The notes beneath the pieces were generated by a model. It searched no databases. It was not told where the DNA came from and saw only the letters and a program-made list of their open reading frames with translations. Shown piece by piece: positions 6,346 through 23,432 of a stretch of DNA of 64,000 bases (position 1 is the stretch's first letter; every line of letters begins with the position of its first letter). The stretch comes from Arthrobacter yangruifuii (GTDB lineage Bacteria > Actinomycetota > Actinomycetes > Actinomycetales > Micrococcaceae), in assembly GCF_009192775.1 (NCBI RefSeq), contig NZ_VTFX01000001.1, forward strand, positions 1 to 64,000, in the 5' to 3' direction. Position numbers and translations under genes: made by a program.

Positions 6346-7292
6346 CGGCGATCAGCGTCCAAACTCATGTAGGTCTCTTCGAGGGCGCCGCCGGCGGGGG
6401 CGAACGCGGTGACGGCGACGTCGGCCTGCACAAGGGAGCGCAGCAGCTGTGCTGCGGCGGTTTCCCCGGCCAGCCGGACCTGCACCTCGGGCCGGTCCGC
6501 GCCGCCCCGCTGCCGGTAGGGGATGCGCAACTCATCGACCTGCCGCAGCAGGGACCCGGTGTTCAGGGACCGGATGGAGTACCAGCGCTCCTGCGCACCG
6601 GCGTCGGCCAGCGACTGGGTCTTGACGGTTTCACCGCGGGCAACGAACACCGCGCCGTCCACCATTTCATCCAGTTCCGAGAGCACGTGCGAGGAGACCA
6701 CCACGGTCTTCCCTTCGTCCGCGAGCCGGCGGAGCAGCGCCCGAAGGTCCACCCGTGATCCGGGATCAAGGCCCGACGCCGGTTCATCCAGCAGCAGGAC
6801 CGACGGGTCATGGATCAGCGCCCGGGCCAGGCTGAGCCGCTGCTGCTGGCCGCGGGAGAACACCCGGGCCGGCTTGTCCGCGAAATCGGTGAGATGCACG
6901 GTTTCCAGCAGCCCGGCAGCCCGCACTCCGGCCACGGACCGCTCTATGCCGTACAGGCCGGCCACCGTGACCAGGATTTCCCGTGCGGTCAGGGATCCCC
7001 AGGTGCCCAGTGTGTCCGGCATCCAGCCGATACCCGCCCGCACCTCAAGCGGATTTGCCACCGGATCGTACCCGTTGATCCGCACCGAACCGGCGTCCGG
7101 GGCCAGCAGGGACGCGAGGATCAGCAGCAAAGTGGTCTTGCCGGAGCCATTGGGCCCAATCAACGCGGTGACCTCACCGGCGGGCGCCGTGAAGTCCATC
7201 CTGCGGACGGCTTCGACACTTCCGAAGCTACGCCTGATGCCCGCTGCGACCACGCCGGTGCCGGCGCTGTGGTCCCCCGCACTGTTGTCCAT
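6342..7292 (-). CDS. ABC transporter ATP-binding protein
   Basis: This is the ATPase of the exporter encoded with the permease downstream. It has Walker A GPNGSGKT near residue 48, a signature variant FSRGQQQR, Walker B VLLLDEPASGLD and the H-loop VVSSHVLSEL. The 316-aa length includes a C-terminal extension of about 90 residues, as in CcmA-like exporters. It is transcribed away from lysC, and the 223-bp gap between them should hold both promoters. Confidence 0.85.
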   Translation of the reverse strand: MDNSAGDHSAGTGVVAAGIRRSFGSVEAVRRMDFTAPAGEVTALIGPNGSGKTTLLLILASLLAPDAGSVRINGYDPVANPLEVRAGIGWMPDTLGTWGSLTAREILVTVAGLYGIERSVAGVRAAGLLETVHLTDFADKPARVFSRGQQQRLSLARALIHDPSVLLLDEPASGLDPGSRVDLRALLRRLADEGKTVVVSSHVLSELDEMVDGAVFVARGETVKTQSLADAGAQERWYSIRSLNTGSLLRQVDELRIPYRQRGGADRPEVQVRLAGETAAAQLLRSLVQADVAVTAFAPAGGALEETYMSLDADRR

Positions 7293-7515
7293 GGGGCCAC
7301 CATAGGAACAGCGGCTCCCCCGGCGCCGCAGACTCGCCGGAAAAGCAGATTAAGCACCGATGTCCTCGACATTTCGGGAGTTCCCGGCGGCGGCGATAGA
7401 CTTTCGGAACGGGGTCCTGCGGATATTACCGCCAACTTTCCCGGGGACACCGTTTCTGCCGCGCCGAGGATGCCGGACCCATTACAGTCACAACTAGATT
7501 CGAGAAAGCGTACGC

Positions 7516-8802
7516 ATGAGCCTGATAGTGCAGAAGTTCGGCGGGTCCTCCGTGGCCGACGCCGAAGGTATCAAGCGCGTCGCCAAACGCGTGGTTGACA
7601 CCCATGCCGCCGGAAACGAAGTAGTAGTTGTCGTCTCTGCCATGGGAGACAGCACAGATGAACTGCTGGACCTCGCCGGCCAGATCACCACGCTGGGCAA
7701 TGCCCGCGAAATGGACATGCTCCTCAGCGCCGGAGAGCGCATTTCGATGGCACTGCTGGCCATGGCCATCAACGAACTCGGCGGGTCAGCGCAGTCCTTC
7801 ACCGGCAGCCAGGCCGGCATGATCACCGACGCCTTCCACGGCAAGGCCCGGATCATTGACGTTTCCCCGCACCGCATCAAAACCGCCATCGAGCGGGGCG
7901 ACATTGCCATCGTTGCGGGTTTCCAGGGCGTCAGCCAGGACAGCCATGACATCACCACCTTGGGCCGGGGCGGTTCGGACACGACGGCGGTGGCCCTGGC
8001 CGCGGCACTGGATGCCGATGTCTGCGAGATCTACACCGACGTCGACGGCGTGTACACCGCCGATCCGCGGGTGGTGTCGAGCGCCCAGAAGATTGAGAAG
8101 ATCTCCAGCGAGGAAATGCTGGAACTGGCAGCCTCGGGCGCCAAGATCCTGCACCTGCGCTGTGTCGAGTACGCCCGCCGCTTCGGCGTTCCCCTGCACG
8201 TCCGCTCGTCCTTCAGCGCACATGAGGGAACCTGGGTGCTGCCCAGCCCCGATGACAAGATCAAGATTCAAGAGGGAGAACCCTTGGAACAGCCCATCAT
8301 CTCCGGCGTCGCCCATGACCGCTCTGAAGCCAAGGTCACCGTGGTGGGCGTGCCCGACATCCCCGGCAAGGCCGCGGAGATTTTCGGCATTGTGGCCGGT
8401 GCCAATACGAACATCGACATGATCGTGCAGAACGTCTCCACCAAGGGATCCGGGCGGACGGACATCTCCTTCACCCTGCCCATCATTGACGGCAAGGAAG
8501 CGATTGACGCGCTCAACGCCGCCCAGGCCGTGGTGGGATTCGACACGATCCAGTACAACGAGCAGATCGGCAAGCTCTCCCTCATCGGGGCCGGCATGCG
8601 CTCGAACCCGGGCGTCTCGCACCGCTTCTTCGAAGCGCTGCACAACGCCGGGGTGAACATCGATATGATCTCCACCTCCGAGATCCGCATCTCCGTAGTC
8701 ACCAGTGCCAAGCTGCTGGATACGGCCGTGCGCGCGGTCCACGCTGCCTTCGGACTCGACGGCGAAGACGCAGCCACGGTCTACGGCGGCACCGGCCGCT
8801 AA
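7516..8802 (+). CDS. lysC: Aspartate kinase (aspartokinase)
   Basis: The enzyme phosphorylates aspartate, the first step toward lysine, threonine, methionine and diaminopimelate. The 428-aa product starts with the kinase motif [14 protein letters not shown], has the GRGGSDTTA substrate motif, and carries two C-terminal ACT domains (from about residue 265) that usually bind lysine and threonine. A probable internal start lies at 8284: TTG, codon 257, preceded by AGAGGGAG and followed by [11 protein letters not shown]. It would give a 172-aa regulatory beta subunit, as known for Corynebacterium and Bacillus LysC. No asd gene follows directly. Confidence 0.95.
8271..8286 (+). promoter_or_regulatory. 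Internal ribosome binding site and TTG start for the LysC beta subunit
   Basis: AGAGGGAG (8271-8278) lies 5 nt before TTG 8284-8286, in frame with lysC. The peptide made from it would begin at the ACT regulatory region, matching the beta subunit of the alpha2-beta2 aspartokinases. Confidence 0.55.
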
Positions 8803-18694: not shown

Positions 18695-19312
18695 CTAGGC
18701 CAGGAAAGACTCGATGGCATCCGTCAGCGCCGCATCCGGAATTCCCTGCGTATCCGATTCCACCAGCAGGAACTCTCCGGAATCCAGGGCGTCGGCGGTC
18801 TGCCGTGCCAGGTCCTGGGCCTCGTCCCCGCTGCCGGTCCCCGCCATCACCAGGACGGGGATACGGACTCCGGCAAGACCCTCGATCTCGGTCTGCAGGA
18901 CCATTAGTTCATCATCACCGTCCGCGAGGGAAAGTGTGGGTTCCAGAGCCACCACTCGGCTGACCACCGTGGATTCCTCCGCCGCGCGGAGGGCCAGGAA
19001 AGCCCCCTCATCGAAGCCGTACAGGTCAGTTGATTCTCCGGCGATTTCGAGGACGGCAAGCAGGTCATCCACGTCCGATTCCGAGGTGTATTCCTCTCCC
19101 ATGCCGCTTTCGCCGATCCCCCGGCGGTCATAGGTGTAGACAGTGTGGTTCTGCGAAAGGGCATCCGCAAGGACCACCGTTGCCGGGCTGCTCCGGTGCG
19201 CGAGCAGGGGGCCGACAATCGCCAGCGGCGGCCCGCTGCCCTGCCGGGACCACGCAATGGGTGTTCCGTCGGCGGAAATCGCTTTCCCTGATGCGGCGTC
19301 TGATGTGGCCAT
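18695..19312 (-). CDS. Alpha/beta hydrolase with Asp at the nucleophile elbow
   Basis: A 205-aa protein, short for an alpha/beta hydrolase and without a large cap domain. An oxyanion region (VGPLLAHRS) and the YDRRGIGESG strand-turn are present. The nucleophile elbow reads GFDEGA (99-104), so the usual Ser of G-x-S-x-G is Asp101; Asp nucleophiles are known in haloalkane dehalogenases and epoxide hydrolases. A catalytic His near the C-terminus is not evident, so the protein may be non-catalytic. Single gene, minus strand, upstream of the riboswitch region. Confidence 0.7.
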   Translation of the reverse strand: MATSDAASGKAISADGTPIAWSRQGSGPPLAIVGPLLAHRSSPATVVLADALSQNHTVYTYDRRGIGESGMGEEYTSESDVDDLLAVLEIAGESTDLYGFDEGAFLALRAAEESTVVSRVVALEPTLSLADGDDELMVLQTEIEGLAGVRIPVLVMAGTGSGDEAQDLARQTADALDSGEFLLVESDTQGIPDAALTDAIESFLA

Positions 19313-19593: not shown

Positions 19594-19757
19594 TGACCAT
19601 CCCGAGCGGCTGAGAGACCTGGATCGTTGAAGCCGCAGCAACCCCGCCTGCCGGATGTCCTCCACGAAGGAACGGCGATGACGAGGCTGGTGCCGCAGGA
19701 CGCCGTTACCCCGGCTCACGGCACCTTCCGTTGGGTGCTACTGCCAGGATCGATGGA
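19594..19757 (+). promoter_or_regulatory. SAM-I (S-box) riboswitch
   Basis: The core matches the S-box: GAGCGGCTGAGAGA (19604-19617), then a kink-turn CGTTGAAGCC and GCAACC (19637-19642). P2 forms from GCGGC (19606-19610) and GCCGC (19632-19636). A GGTGC occurs at 19689-19693, with GCCT/AGGC and ACC/GGT pairing, and again as GGGTGCTACTGCCAG at 19733-19747, so the P3 arm appears enlarged. CCATC (19598-19602) can pair with GATGG (19752-19756) to close P1, which overlaps the ribosome binding site of the next gene; SAM binding would then block translation. S-boxes normally control methionine or sulfur genes. Confidence 0.78.
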
Positions 19758-19766
19758 GATGCTTCT

Positions 19767-20576
19767 ATGACCTCAGTCCTGCGTACGCCCACGTCCGGCT
19801 CCGGCACAGCCCTGCCGGTGTCCTTCGCCGGGCTCGGCCGCAGTTTCGGCACCGGCCCGGACGAACAGGTGGTCCTTCGGGACATCAGCGTCGACGTCCG
19901 TCCCGGGGAGGTCCTGGCTGTCCTGGGACCGGTCGGCTGCGGCAAGTCCACCCTGCTGCGGGCTGCCGCCGGACTGGACCTGCCTACGGCCGGAACCATC
20001 CTCATCGACGGGAAGCCGGTTTTGGGCGCCGATGACCGCTGCGCCGTGGCCGGGCGGGAACCCCGGCTGCTTCCGTCGCAGACGCTGCAGGCCAACATCG
20101 CCGTCGGGTTGCCGAAATCCTCGAGCGCCAGCCGCGGGAAGGCCAAGGTTGCCGAGCTCCTGGACCTGGTGGGACTGGCCGCCTTTGCCAAGCACCTGCC
20201 GCGGGCGGTCTCCCGTGGCCTGGCCCAGCGGACCTCGCTGGCGCGGGCCTTCGCACGGGAACCGGGTGTCCTGCTGCTGGATGAACCCTTTGGCGCCCTG
20301 GATGCGCTGACGCGGCTCAAGATGCGGGAGCTGCTTCAGTCCCTGCACCGGGCGGCGCCCGCCACCGTACTGCTGGTCACCGATGATGTGGATGAAGCCC
20401 TGCAGCTGGCGGACCGCGTCGCGGTCCTTGGCACGGAGGACGGCGTTCCCGGCGCAACCGTCACCGAGGTGCAGAATGTTCCGGGCGGCCGGCCATGGGA
20501 CCGGGACCGGGCTTCGTCGGAGCTGGCCCGAATACGCGGACATCTCGTCGCCCTGCTGGGCGTCGGGCACCGCTAA
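19767..20576 (+). CDS. SsuB-like ABC ATPase, orphan and degenerate, under a SAM riboswitch
   Basis: A 269-aa ATPase of the sulfonate/nitrate/taurine (SsuB/TauB) branch. Walker A GPVGCGKST (54-62), Walker B VLLLDEP (168-174) and D-loop FGALDA are intact. The Q-loop Gln is replaced by Arg97 (AGREPRLLPSQT against the usual FQEPRLLPW), the signature LSGGQ reads VSRGLAQR (148-155), and the H-loop His is Asp206 (VTDDVDEA). No permease or binding protein lies beside it. It may serve transport proteins encoded elsewhere with altered kinetics, or have a non-transport role. The start is fixed by GGAG at 19755-19758. Confidence 0.8.
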   Translation: MTSVLRTPTSGSGTALPVSFAGLGRSFGTGPDEQVVLRDISVDVRPGEVLAVLGPVGCGKSTLLRAAAGLDLPTAGTILIDGKPVLGADDRCAVAGREPRLLPSQTLQANIAVGLPKSSSASRGKAKVAELLDLVGLAAFAKHLPRAVSRGLAQRTSLARAFAREPGVLLLDEPFGALDALTRLKMRELLQSLHRAAPATVLLVTDDVDEALQLADRVAVLGTEDGVPGATVTEVQNVPGGRPWDRDRASSELARIRGHLVALLGVGHR

Positions 20577-20621
20577 CCCTCCGACGTCCTTCACCACCCG
20601 GTCTCTCCGGTTGGCTGGGGA

Positions 20622-20885
20622 TCAGCGCAGGCGGCGCGTCAGGGTCACCCGGTCCAGCACCACGGCTCCTCCCATGGCCTGATGGACCTGAATAAATTCC
20701 GTGGGAGAGACCTCCAGGATGGAGCTATCCGTCCGGGACGGCAGGAGATCCTCGCGCTGACCCTCCCTGATGTCAAGAAACAGCCGGGTGGCCTCGCGCA
20801 GGTCCATCGGCTCGGTGAAGGCCACCCGGTGGGCGGCGGAAGCCATCTTGTAGCCCGTCTCCACAACAATCACGTATTCGTCCAC
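20622..20885 (-). CDS. Hypothetical protein
   Basis: An 87-aa protein starting at GTG 20885, which has a strong AGGAGG five bases upstream. It reads VDEYVIVVETGYKM, then an acidic middle and a basic tail LDRVTLTRRLR, with predicted alternating strands and helices and no membrane segment. I do not recognise a family. It converges with the SsuB-like gene (45 bp between stops). Confidence 0.6.
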   Translation of the reverse strand: MDEYVIVVETGYKMASAAHRVAFTEPMDLREATRLFLDIREGQREDLLPSRTDSSILEVSPTEFIQVHQAMGGAVVLDRVTLTRRLR

Positions 20886-21008
20886 TGCGGCCTCCTGAGT
20901 GCCTGCGGAGCACGCGTTCCACCTGCAACCTAAGCCCATGCCCGGCGCCCACCGCAACGGTGAAGGACGGATTCGTCGCCCCGGCGCCGGAGAAGAAGGA
21001 GCGTCTGC

Positions 21009-21872
21009 CTACCGGTCCCGGCCGGACAGACCGCGCCCGGGAGCGCCGTCGGCGCCCCACCCCTTGCCGCGGCTGGAATCCCCGTGCGGGGCGCCGCGTC
21101 CACCGGGCATGCCCGCGCCCTTGGGATTCTGCGTGCCGTCGTCGGCGTGCGGGCCGTCGTCGTGCAGCCCAGGTCCCGGCGGCGGGCCTTGGACAATTCC
21201 TCGACCTTTACCGCCCCCGGCGCCCGGATCGGCTCCGGCTCCCGGCGGCATCCGGCTGCCCGGCTTTGCGACCGGAGCGGGGGCGACGGTGATTGCTTCC
21301 GTTTCCGGTTCAGGCTCCGGTGCCGGTTCAAGGTCCGTTGGCGGTGCCGGCTCGTGGTCAGGATCAGGCTGCGTTTGCGGCCCGGTTTCCGCTTCCGGTA
21401 CCGGTACGGGGTCCGGGCCGGCCTCTGCCACCGGCTCGGGTTCGGGGTGCGGTTCGGGGACCGGTTCCGCTTCGGCCGCTGGGGCAGCAGGATCCGCAGG
21501 CTCTTCTTCACCCTCGGCCGGGTCCGAACGGTCCATGCTGGAGGACTCCGGCAGAAAGCTGACGGTAGGATTCGGCTCGGCCTGAACCAGGAAATCGGGA
21601 GCGGCTGCCACGCCCCCGGCGCCGACCGCCATGGCCCCGATGAGGGCAGCACCAAGGACAATCCCCCGGCTGCGCTTCCTCCGGGGGCGCAGGGGCACCG
21701 GGGCTCCCGATAACAGGGCGGCGAGTTTTCCTTCCGGCTCCGGCGCGGGTGTGCGGGACTCACAGCACAGGGCCAGCAGCGCCTCAACCAGCTCAGGGGT
21801 TTCCTCGATGCCTGCTTCCGCCAGGAGGCCGCGGACGTAGAGTCGGTCCTGCGCATCAGGATGCTCGCTCAT
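21009..21872 (-). CDS. Membrane protein with Pro/Glu-rich extracellular region, probable sigma-factor partner
   Basis: A 287-aa protein in three parts: a soluble N-terminal region (1-68) with a CC pair at 36-37, a basic stop RRKRSRG, one transmembrane helix (about 70-92), then a long low-complexity exterior. Residues about 128-217 are dominated by Glu-Pro pairs (EPEPEPE type), followed by a Gly/Pro-rich tail. Its gene overlaps the sigma-factor gene by 17 nt, the usual arrangement of sigma and membrane anti-sigma pairs. I see no zinc-binding HxxxCxxC motif, so anti-sigma function is inference from context. Confidence 0.6.
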   Translation of the reverse strand: MSEHPDAQDRLYVRGLLAEAGIEETPELVEALLALCCESRTPAPEPEGKLAALLSGAPVPLRPRRKRSRGIVLGAALIGAMAVGAGGVAAAPDFLVQAEPNPTVSFLPESSSMDRSDPAEGEEEPADPAAPAAEAEPVPEPHPEPEPVAEAGPDPVPVPEAETGPQTQPDPDHEPAPPTDLEPAPEPEPETEAITVAPAPVAKPGSRMPPGAGADPGAGGGKGRGIVQGPPPGPGLHDDGPHADDGTQNPKGAGMPGGRGAPHGDSSRGKGWGADGAPGRGLSGRDR

Positions 21873-22512
21873 TGTGCGGTGCCTCCTTCCGTTCCAATTG
21901 GTTTCTGAGTTCCCCGAGTGCACGGCGCTGGAGCTGCTTCACGGCTCCGGCACTGCGTCCCATGATTTTCGCCGATTCGTCCACGGAGAGATCGGCTACC
22001 ACGCGCAGCAGCAGGACTTCCTGCTGCTGCGGTGTCAGGCCCCCCAGGAGGGCAGCAACTCCGGCACCGCCGCCAAGCACGCTTTCCTCCGCGGATTCCG
22101 TGGCACGCCGGTCCAGCTCCGGATCAAACACGGCTATTGCCGGCTCGCGCTCGCGCCGTCGGGCGTCGTCCACCATACGGGCGTGGGCAACGGAGAAGGC
22201 AAAGGTGCGGGCTCCCCGGAGTCCGCCTTTGAGCGTGTCCAGCTTGGAGAACAACGTCAGGAAGACTTCCTGCGTCAGTGCTTCGGGGTCTTCACACCCC
22301 TTGGAGCGGAGGTAGCCAAGAACGGCCGGTGCGAAGTCGTCATAAATGTTGCGCAGAGCCGCCGGTTTCCGGGCGCGCGCATCACTGAGCGTTTGCTCAG
22401 TAAGCGGTGGTGCCAAGGCGGAATCGCTTTCCTCAAGATACGGAGTGGTCCAAATGCTACCGTGTCCGGCCTTGGTGCGTTGCCGCGAAACGCTCGTACG
22501 CAACGGCCGCAC
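21856..22512 (-). CDS. RNA polymerase sigma factor, ECF-like sigma-70 family
   Basis: A protein of up to 218 aa with sigma region 2 (LRNIYDDFAPAVLGYLRSKG and EALTQEVFLTLFSKL) and region 4 (LTPQQQEVLLLRVVADLSV, ESAKIMGRSAGAVKQLQRRAL), and no region 3, as in ECF factors. The upstream frame holds an extra 45 or so residues that may not be translated; the start is uncertain and GTG 22512 is only the longest choice. The next gene overlaps it and encodes a membrane protein that may hold it inactive. Confidence 0.8.
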   Translation of the reverse strand: MRPLRTSVSRQRTKAGHGSIWTTPYLEESDSALAPPLTEQTLSDARARKPAALRNIYDDFAPAVLGYLRSKGCEDPEALTQEVFLTLFSKLDTLKGGLRGARTFAFSVAHARMVDDARRREREPAIAVFDPELDRRATESAEESVLGGGAGVAALLGGLTPQQQEVLLLRVVADLSVDESAKIMGRSAGAVKQLQRRALGELRNQLERKEAPHNERAS

Positions 22513-22625
22513 CGATGCCCGTTGGGGGGATAGGCCTCGGCGCGGCCGTTACACACACGTAATCGACGGCGGATAGGAGAAGGTTACGCGGCGGCGGAAA
22601 TACTTTCCGCAGGTTTCCCCGGGCC

Positions 22626-23432
22626 CTAATGTGCCTCCACGATCCGCGTGTTTTCCGCGAAGCGGCGGTTCCTGAGGACCGGCAAGAACTGCCGTACGTC
22701 CTCGATCCGCCGGCGGGTGACGTCCGCCGTCACCACAGCCTCGCGTTCCTCCTCCAGCGCAGCCTGGGGCACACCCATCGGGTCCAGGATGGCCGAGTGC
22801 CCCACGGTATGCCGGCTGGAGGTTCCTGCAGCCGCCACCCACACCGTGTTCTCGATGGCGCGGGCCTTCAGCAGCGTCTCCCAGTGGTCAATCTTGTGCT
22901 CACCCCGGAACCACGCCGCGGGAACGGCCAGCAGATCGGCGTCAAGGTCGGCGAGCGCCCTGGCCAGTTCCGGGAAGCGCAGGTCATAGCAGGTCATGAC
23001 CCCCACCAACAGACCGCCCACCTGCATCACCTTTACGCCGCCGTCGCCCGGCTTAATCCGGTCCGACTCGGCATAGCTGAACGCGTCATACAGGTGCAGC
23101 TTCCGGTACGTGTCCACAATCCGGCCGGTCGCATCGATCAGGACCAGGGTGTTGAAGGGCCGCTCCTCGCCGCTGGACTCATAACCGCCGGCAATCACCG
23201 CGATTTCCAGCTCCGCCGCCAGCAGGGACAGCTGGGAGACGAAGGTGGTCCAGGAGGCGTCGACGGCGGAGGCCAGGGGACCTTCCACTTTGCCGATGCT
23301 GAACATGGATTCTTCGGGAAAGATGATCAGCTCGGACCCCTCGGCCCTGGCCTTGCCGGCAAGGGAGCGCATGGTGCCCAGGTTTTCCCGGACGTCCCCG
23401 GAGGGGCTGAACTGACCGACGCTGACTAACAC
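22626..23432 (-). CDS. Carbon-nitrogen hydrolase (nitrilase superfamily)
   Basis: A 268-aa amidase of the nitrilase superfamily. The Glu-Lys-Cys triad is visible in IIFPEESMF (Glu), RKLHLYDAF (Lys) and MTCYDLRFPELAR (Cys). The LRFPEL motif after the Cys is typical of omega-amidase/NIT-like enzymes (deaminated glutathione or omega-amide substrates), but the substrate cannot be fixed. It lies 39 bp upstream of the start side of the alcohol dehydrogenase stop, in the same direction. Confidence 0.87.
   Translation of the reverse strand: MLVSVGQFSPSGDVRENLGTMRSLAGKARAEGSELIIFPEESMFSIGKVEGPLASAVDASWTTFVSQLSLLAAELEIAVIAGGYESSGEERPFNTLVLIDATGRIVDTYRKLHLYDAFSYAESDRIKPGDGGVKVMQVGGLLVGVMTCYDLRFPELARALADLDADLLAVPAAWFRGEHKIDHWETLLKARAIENTVWVAAAGTSSRHTVGHSAILDPMGVPQAALEEEREAVVTADVTRRRIEDVRQFLPVLRNRRFAENTRIVEAH

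Follow-up and report, generated by a model that had tools for sequence, protein, structure and literature searches.

A probable relic of an S-box-controlled SsuBAC-type importer operon in Arthrobacter yangruifuii, with a degenerate ssuB left behind its riboswitch

The locus at positions 19594–20576 of the window (the first 64,000 nucleotides of Arthrobacter yangruifuii contig NZ_VTFX01000001.1, analysed as a whole) is, with a probability of roughly 0.88, the relic of an S-box-controlled importer of the SsuBAC type, putatively for sulfonate or taurine, that is part-way through loss. We favour this reading because 27 of the 28 other same-genus genomes examined have an S-box-ssuB-ssuA-ssuC operon at this site of the chromosome (the whole block is absent there from the remaining one, G008), because ssuA and ssuC are gone here, and because the ATPase gene and leader that remain carry changes at otherwise invariant sites. 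The locus looks like a real but ordinary one, a half-lost operon that is decaying instead of gaining a new role.

The remaining gene (19767–20576, + strand) is a degenerate ssuB, orthologous to the SsuB gene of the S-box-ssuBAC operon, and encodes a 269-aa ABC ATPase (Pfam ABC_tran, 93.1 bits) with 70–84% identity to its orthologues in the genus. Its reading frame is unbroken from the ATG at 19767 to the TAA ending at 20576; this start was chosen since the relatives begin with MT there, and the mechanical ORF list starts at TTG 19731. Walker A (GPVGCGKST) and Walker B (VLLLDEP) are kept as in an SsuB-type ATPase, but the three further residues expected of one are replaced, with Arg97 in place of the Q-loop Gln, Arg in place of the signature Gly (VSRGLAQR, 148–155) and Asp206 in place of the H-loop His, all as the earlier note had read them. 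Its choice of LSGGQ as the reference for the signature did not hold: the native motif in the relatives is VSGGMAQR, so that the signature is indeed degenerate here, by G150R and M152L only. Further losses comprise F96G beside the Q-loop, W104S, and a Ser-to-Val replacement at 56 in the P-loop (alignment columns F84G, W92S and S44V). In ABC ATPases the Q-loop Gln, the signature Gly and the H-loop His couple ATP hydrolysis to transport. All three are canonical in each of the 26 relatives with an unbroken ssuB, one half of the outcome that the earlier note had named as pointing to a degenerate copy. The orthologue search retained the top 80 among 325 relatives, seven of which (L045–L051) had at least 70% identity; the other 73 (30–44%) were distant ABC ATPases and were left out.

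The ATPase scored 161.8 bits against the NCBIfam equivalog PRK11247, below the required 395 bits, as did its intact relative in L046 (198.2 bits). The closest solved relatives by sequence were CmpD and nitrate-transport ATPase chains (9u9z and 8wm7, E 4.9e-40 and 6.6e-38); in CmpD (9u9z, the alignment examined) the Q-loop Gln, the SGG signature and the H-loop His are present, unlike in the ATPase described here. Three PADLOC matches (mad3, mad8 and AriA) were judged to reflect the shared ATPase fold, and a defence role was rejected.

The relatives, where named, are Arthrobacter species such as A. zhaoxinii and A. gandavensis, and ssuB is followed by ssuA and ssuC in all 27 that have it. The gene order ssuB-ssuA-ssuC shared by these 27 relatives is that of the SsuBAC aliphatic-sulfonate importer (nitrate/sulfonate/taurine ABC family), from which the present genome differs in retaining the ATPase alone, without its Q-loop, signature and H-loop residues. 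In L046, SsuA passes TIGR01728 (210.8 over a cut-off of 163.5 bits), and SsuC has its best match to PRK11365 (186 bits, below the cut-off of 347). Of the 27 relatives, 25 have metY (O-acetylhomoserine sulfhydrylase) downstream of ssuBAC and 23 an acetate-CoA ligase gene, neighbours that fit with sulfur and methionine metabolism; the control by sulfur or methionine supply that the earlier note proposed likewise fits the ancestral operon. At the corresponding place of the window (20632–22626), and of G008, G009 and G042 (L167, L192 and L205), neither neighbour was found. One relative, G014 (L189), has its ssuB split over three frames; an assembly or sequencing error is likelier than decay there because its flanking hydrolase gene is also split, over two frames. 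G014 was left out of the ssuB private-change and rate counts on account of the split gene. G009 (L167) has a run of about 17–20 C between ssuC and the gene that matches window positions 20622–20957, which is absent there in G042 and may be either a variable tract or an assembly error.

A deletion scar marks the place of the two lost genes. In a blastn comparison with L045 (Arthrobacter zhaoxinii), the window aligned up to 20582 (L045 position 6775) and resumed at 20632 (8790), leaving 49 bases (20583–20631) where L045 has 2,014 bases with ssuA (6879–7928) and ssuC (7925–8758). No new gene occupies the 49-base gap. The locus is flanked downstream by a gene for a 111-aa protein without a Pfam match (20622–20957, − strand), whose counterpart comes next after ssuC in G009 and G042, two near relatives, and upstream by an alpha/beta hydrolase gene (Abhydrolase_6; 18695–19312, − strand), assigned by Pfam and synteny and used as a control in the rate comparisons. 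The orphan state of the ATPase gene that the earlier note described was borne out: it lacks the SsuA and SsuC genes with which an SsuB-type ATPase shares its operon, and no match to the permease family PF00528 was found within C1:1–86965 of the window's contig. The rest of the genome yielded no SsuA or SsuC orthologue, the best-scoring matches having 25% and 30% identity, respectively.

In another genome, G008, the whole block has been lost. Its flanking genes remain, separated by about 220 unaligned bases; this stretch gave no match to ssuB, ssuA or ssuC, and the genome as a whole gave none to RF00162 and has a paralogue of 45% identity as its best ssuB match. In the flank-gene tree, G008 grouped with G012, G015 and their kin (support 0.92) and the window with G009 and G042 (0.90), and the two losses are considered separate because they fall in different groups of the tree.

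The leader (19594–19759, + strand) is the aptamer of an S-box riboswitch (SAM-I type) in which P3 carries a long insert. The earlier note, whose coordinates are exact, had placed a SAM riboswitch before the ATPase gene, and the assignment was upheld by a covariance-model match to RF00162 that is significant, spans the full model (positions 1–108 of 108), lies on the correct strand 5′ of the ATPase gene and scores 39.7 bits (E 1.8e-7 in a 701-base stretch), although this is below the Rfam gathering score of 44.4 bits, for which reason a plain Rfam scan of the window omits it. Searched against the whole genome, the leader (E 2.2e-7) was the sole RF00162 match at E ≤ 0.1. SAM-IV was rejected in favour of SAM-I, since RF00162 is the best match here within its clan and the three SAM-IV matches of the genome lie elsewhere. 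An Rfam scan of 16 relatives gave an RF00162 match at the same place in 15, at 39.0–43.8 bits, a range that is entirely below 44.4 and includes the score of the window's leader; the one scanned relative without a match there, L044, belongs to another family and has 53% identity. A pattern search found the S-box directly 5′ of ssuB in 27 of 27 relatives having the gene, contrary to the other half of the outcome named in the earlier note, the lack of a conserved S-box; the leaders of G039–G042 were checked by pattern, that of G042 also by RF00162.

The leader thus resembles the S-box of RF00162 in its full alignment, in the shared core GCAACC...GGTGC and in its place before a sulfur-uptake-type gene, and differs from it in scoring under the gathering threshold, as do the leaders of the 15 matching relatives, in the long P3 insert, and in a P1 that itself bears the ribosome-binding site. 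The 3′ strand of P1 (GATGGAGA, 19752–19759, + strand), placed by the P1 pairing in the cmscan alignment and by sequence, includes the ribosome-binding site GGAG (19755–19758) 8 nt 5′ of the ATG. The 24 aligned leaders (L044 left out) preserve GATGGAG in this strand, and so do 27 of 27 relatives, in which the ribosome-binding site stands 6–8 bases 5′ of the ATG. All 15 matching relatives (of 16) score just under the Rfam cut-off, which suggests that in Arthrobacter it misses those SAM-I aptamers whose P3 has a long insert. Other SAM-sensing elements occur nearby in some relatives. Seven of the 16 scanned relatives (L028, L030, L032, L036, L039, L041 and L043) have SAM-IV riboswitches (90.5–100.2 bits) near their S-box operon, and so two SAM-sensing classes side by side, and at L042:1012–1104 (− strand) a second S-box of 63.0 bits, above the Rfam cut-off, lies upstream of the ssuBAC S-box on the opposite strand and faces away from it.

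The window's leader alone has accumulated many changes. Among 24 aligned leaders (the window and 23 relatives, L044 being left out for its 53% identity and other family), it has seven private changes at 116 otherwise invariant columns, several of them in P3, whereas the other 23 have at most two each and 18 of the 24 have none. Two of the seven, T52C and A194T, lie opposite one another in P3, where together they replace a base pair by a mismatch; the P3 duplex is weaker in the window (−10.7 kcal/mol) than in the 23 relatives (−11.7 to −12.9). Neither P1 nor the ribosome-binding site has changed, the fold of P2 is slightly more stable (−12.4 versus −10.7 to −11.6 in the relatives), and the energy of the whole aptamer (−62.3) lies inside the relatives' range (−59.2 to −81.4), as does the Rfam score, so that the switch may still work and a response of the leader to SAM may be retained.

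Private changes are also in excess in the ATPase. In an alignment of 27 sequences, it differs at 20 of the 166 residues on which the other 26 all agree; the next worst ssuB differs at 4 of 150, and 19 of the 26 relatives have no such change. The flanking genes behave differently: the hydrolase of the window has 6/140 private changes and that of another genome 12/146 (11 sequences), and for the gene at 20622–20957 the counts are 1/51 in the window and 5/56 in another genome (8 sequences). A third control, a nitrilase, gave 16/266 private changes in the window and a pairwise dN/dS of 0.08–0.09 from just three sequences. The controls were aligned where identity and coverage passed the limit, which set these numbers of sequences. 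Together with the deletion of ssuA and ssuC, the excess in the ATPase (20/166) and in the leader (7/116) overturns the argument, drawn in the earlier note from the intact Walker motifs and the riboswitch, that the locus is not in simple decay.

Branch rates from distance triplets agree with these counts. For ssuB, dN/dS was 0.37–0.55 on the window branch versus 0.05–0.12 on the sister branch (five triplets), compared with 0.10–0.11 versus 0.04–0.06 for the hydrolase (five triplets) and 0.19–0.23 versus 0.27–0.37 for the gene at 20622–20957 (four triplets). The hydrolase is not a perfectly clean control, as its dN in the window is likewise slightly raised over that of the sister; the range lies above zero in two of the five triplets. 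Bootstrap ranges for the ssuB window branch were 0.31–0.90, 0.29–0.77, 0.20–0.64, 0.28–0.94 and 0.30–1.02, four of the five staying below 1. A dN/dS below 1 is as expected if the gene was free of constraint over part of the branch, and equally if weak constraint remains. In a simple simulation of substitutions alone, the probability that no stop codon arises was 0.68, 0.29 and 0.12 after 20, 60 and 100 random substitutions (60 being a rough guess), and the unbroken frame is therefore mild evidence for some constraint.

That constraint is where a different reading could begin, in which the gene, having lost its transporter, was repurposed as a SAM-controlled ATP-binding regulator or scaffold, a sensor of sulfur status that binds ATP and does not cycle it. 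The unbroken frame, the retained Walker A and B motifs, the dN/dS below 1 and an S-box score inside the range of the relatives are all in its favour. So is the distribution of the private ATPase changes, which hit 5 of the 15 sites in the Q, signature and H motifs (P 0.021) but 1 of the 22 Walker and D-loop sites (P 0.22), these groups having been chosen post hoc. The codon for F84 (alignment column), moreover, is changed at all three bases, which is unusual for independent neutral hits. Radical replacements, however, also fall outside the Q, signature and H motifs (alignment columns W92S, I207A, L179Q and, in the P-loop, S44V), some of them probably at packing positions; the riboswitch itself carries private changes; the altered form occurs in no relative, all 26 being canonical; and nothing but 49 bases has taken the place of ssuAC. 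We regard such a new role as improbable.

It is less probable still that the gene encodes an altered transport ATPase that powers a permease encoded elsewhere, a possibility the earlier note had raised. Fifteen of the 43 permease-domain genes in the genome have no ATPase gene within 4 kb, one ModB-like gene among them, which leaves room for a partner in principle; none of the 15, however, is among the seven matches to the SsuC query, and these fall in four clusters that each have their own ATPase, so that no ATPase-less SsuC-like permease was found in the genome. Scans covered seven of the 15, made up of the unpaired gene and, from six of the seven pairs, the first gene: five were most like UgpA-type sugar permeases, one had no match, and one was ModB-like. 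Four relatives also have an ATPase-less modA-modB pair (judged over 1.5 kb on each side), and three of these four retain an ssuBAC of their own. Loss of the signature Gly and of the H-loop His should, besides, abolish the cycling of an ABC ATPase. The pair itself lies at G000:C5 ~718021–721270 (L213:1522–4770), where modA and the ModB-like gene are followed by what we take to be a molybdopterin-oxidoreductase-like gene (the modA label is likewise presumed from the sequence), with no ATPase gene nearby; G008, G009, G012 and G042 have the same modA-modB arrangement without an ATPase gene within 1.5 kb on each side. An artefact, whereby the assembly would lack an ssuAC block that the organism has and the substitutions would be errors, seems about as doubtful. 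The assembly is indeed a draft of nine contigs, but it is rated 99.55% complete and yielded no ssuA or ssuC orthologue, both sides of the junction lie in one contig with 83–86% identity to L045, and it is just in the ATPase gene and the leader that private replacements are in strong excess.

We thus return to a relic of the importer operon and envisage its history as follows. In the intact relatives, SAM would close P1, whose 3′ strand bears the ribosome-binding site, presumably by direct occlusion of that site, and the importer would be produced just when SAM, and with it methionine or sulfur, is short. On the lineage of the window, ssuA and ssuC would have been lost by deletion, and the decay of the ATPase and of the leader would have come after it. 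The leader would now at best control a partnerless ATPase that lacks the residues coupling hydrolysis to transport, and such a protein, with neither a membrane partner nor these residues, would have no useful role and be on its way to loss. The likely end point of this course is G008, in which the whole block has separately gone.

Literature searches, judged by titles and the openings of abstracts, found no paper on a genus-wide S-box-ssuBAC operon, and PMC3766115 gave no occurrence of Arthrobacter or ssu. The genus-wide operon itself, with an S-box that scores just below the Rfam cut-off, may be mildly new. For the genus, the locus offers a clear intermediate in the erosion of a riboswitch operon, with the operon in 27 relatives, the ATPase gene and the switch here, and nothing in G008, and it illustrates how a half-lost operon can pass for an orphan regulator when one genome is viewed alone.
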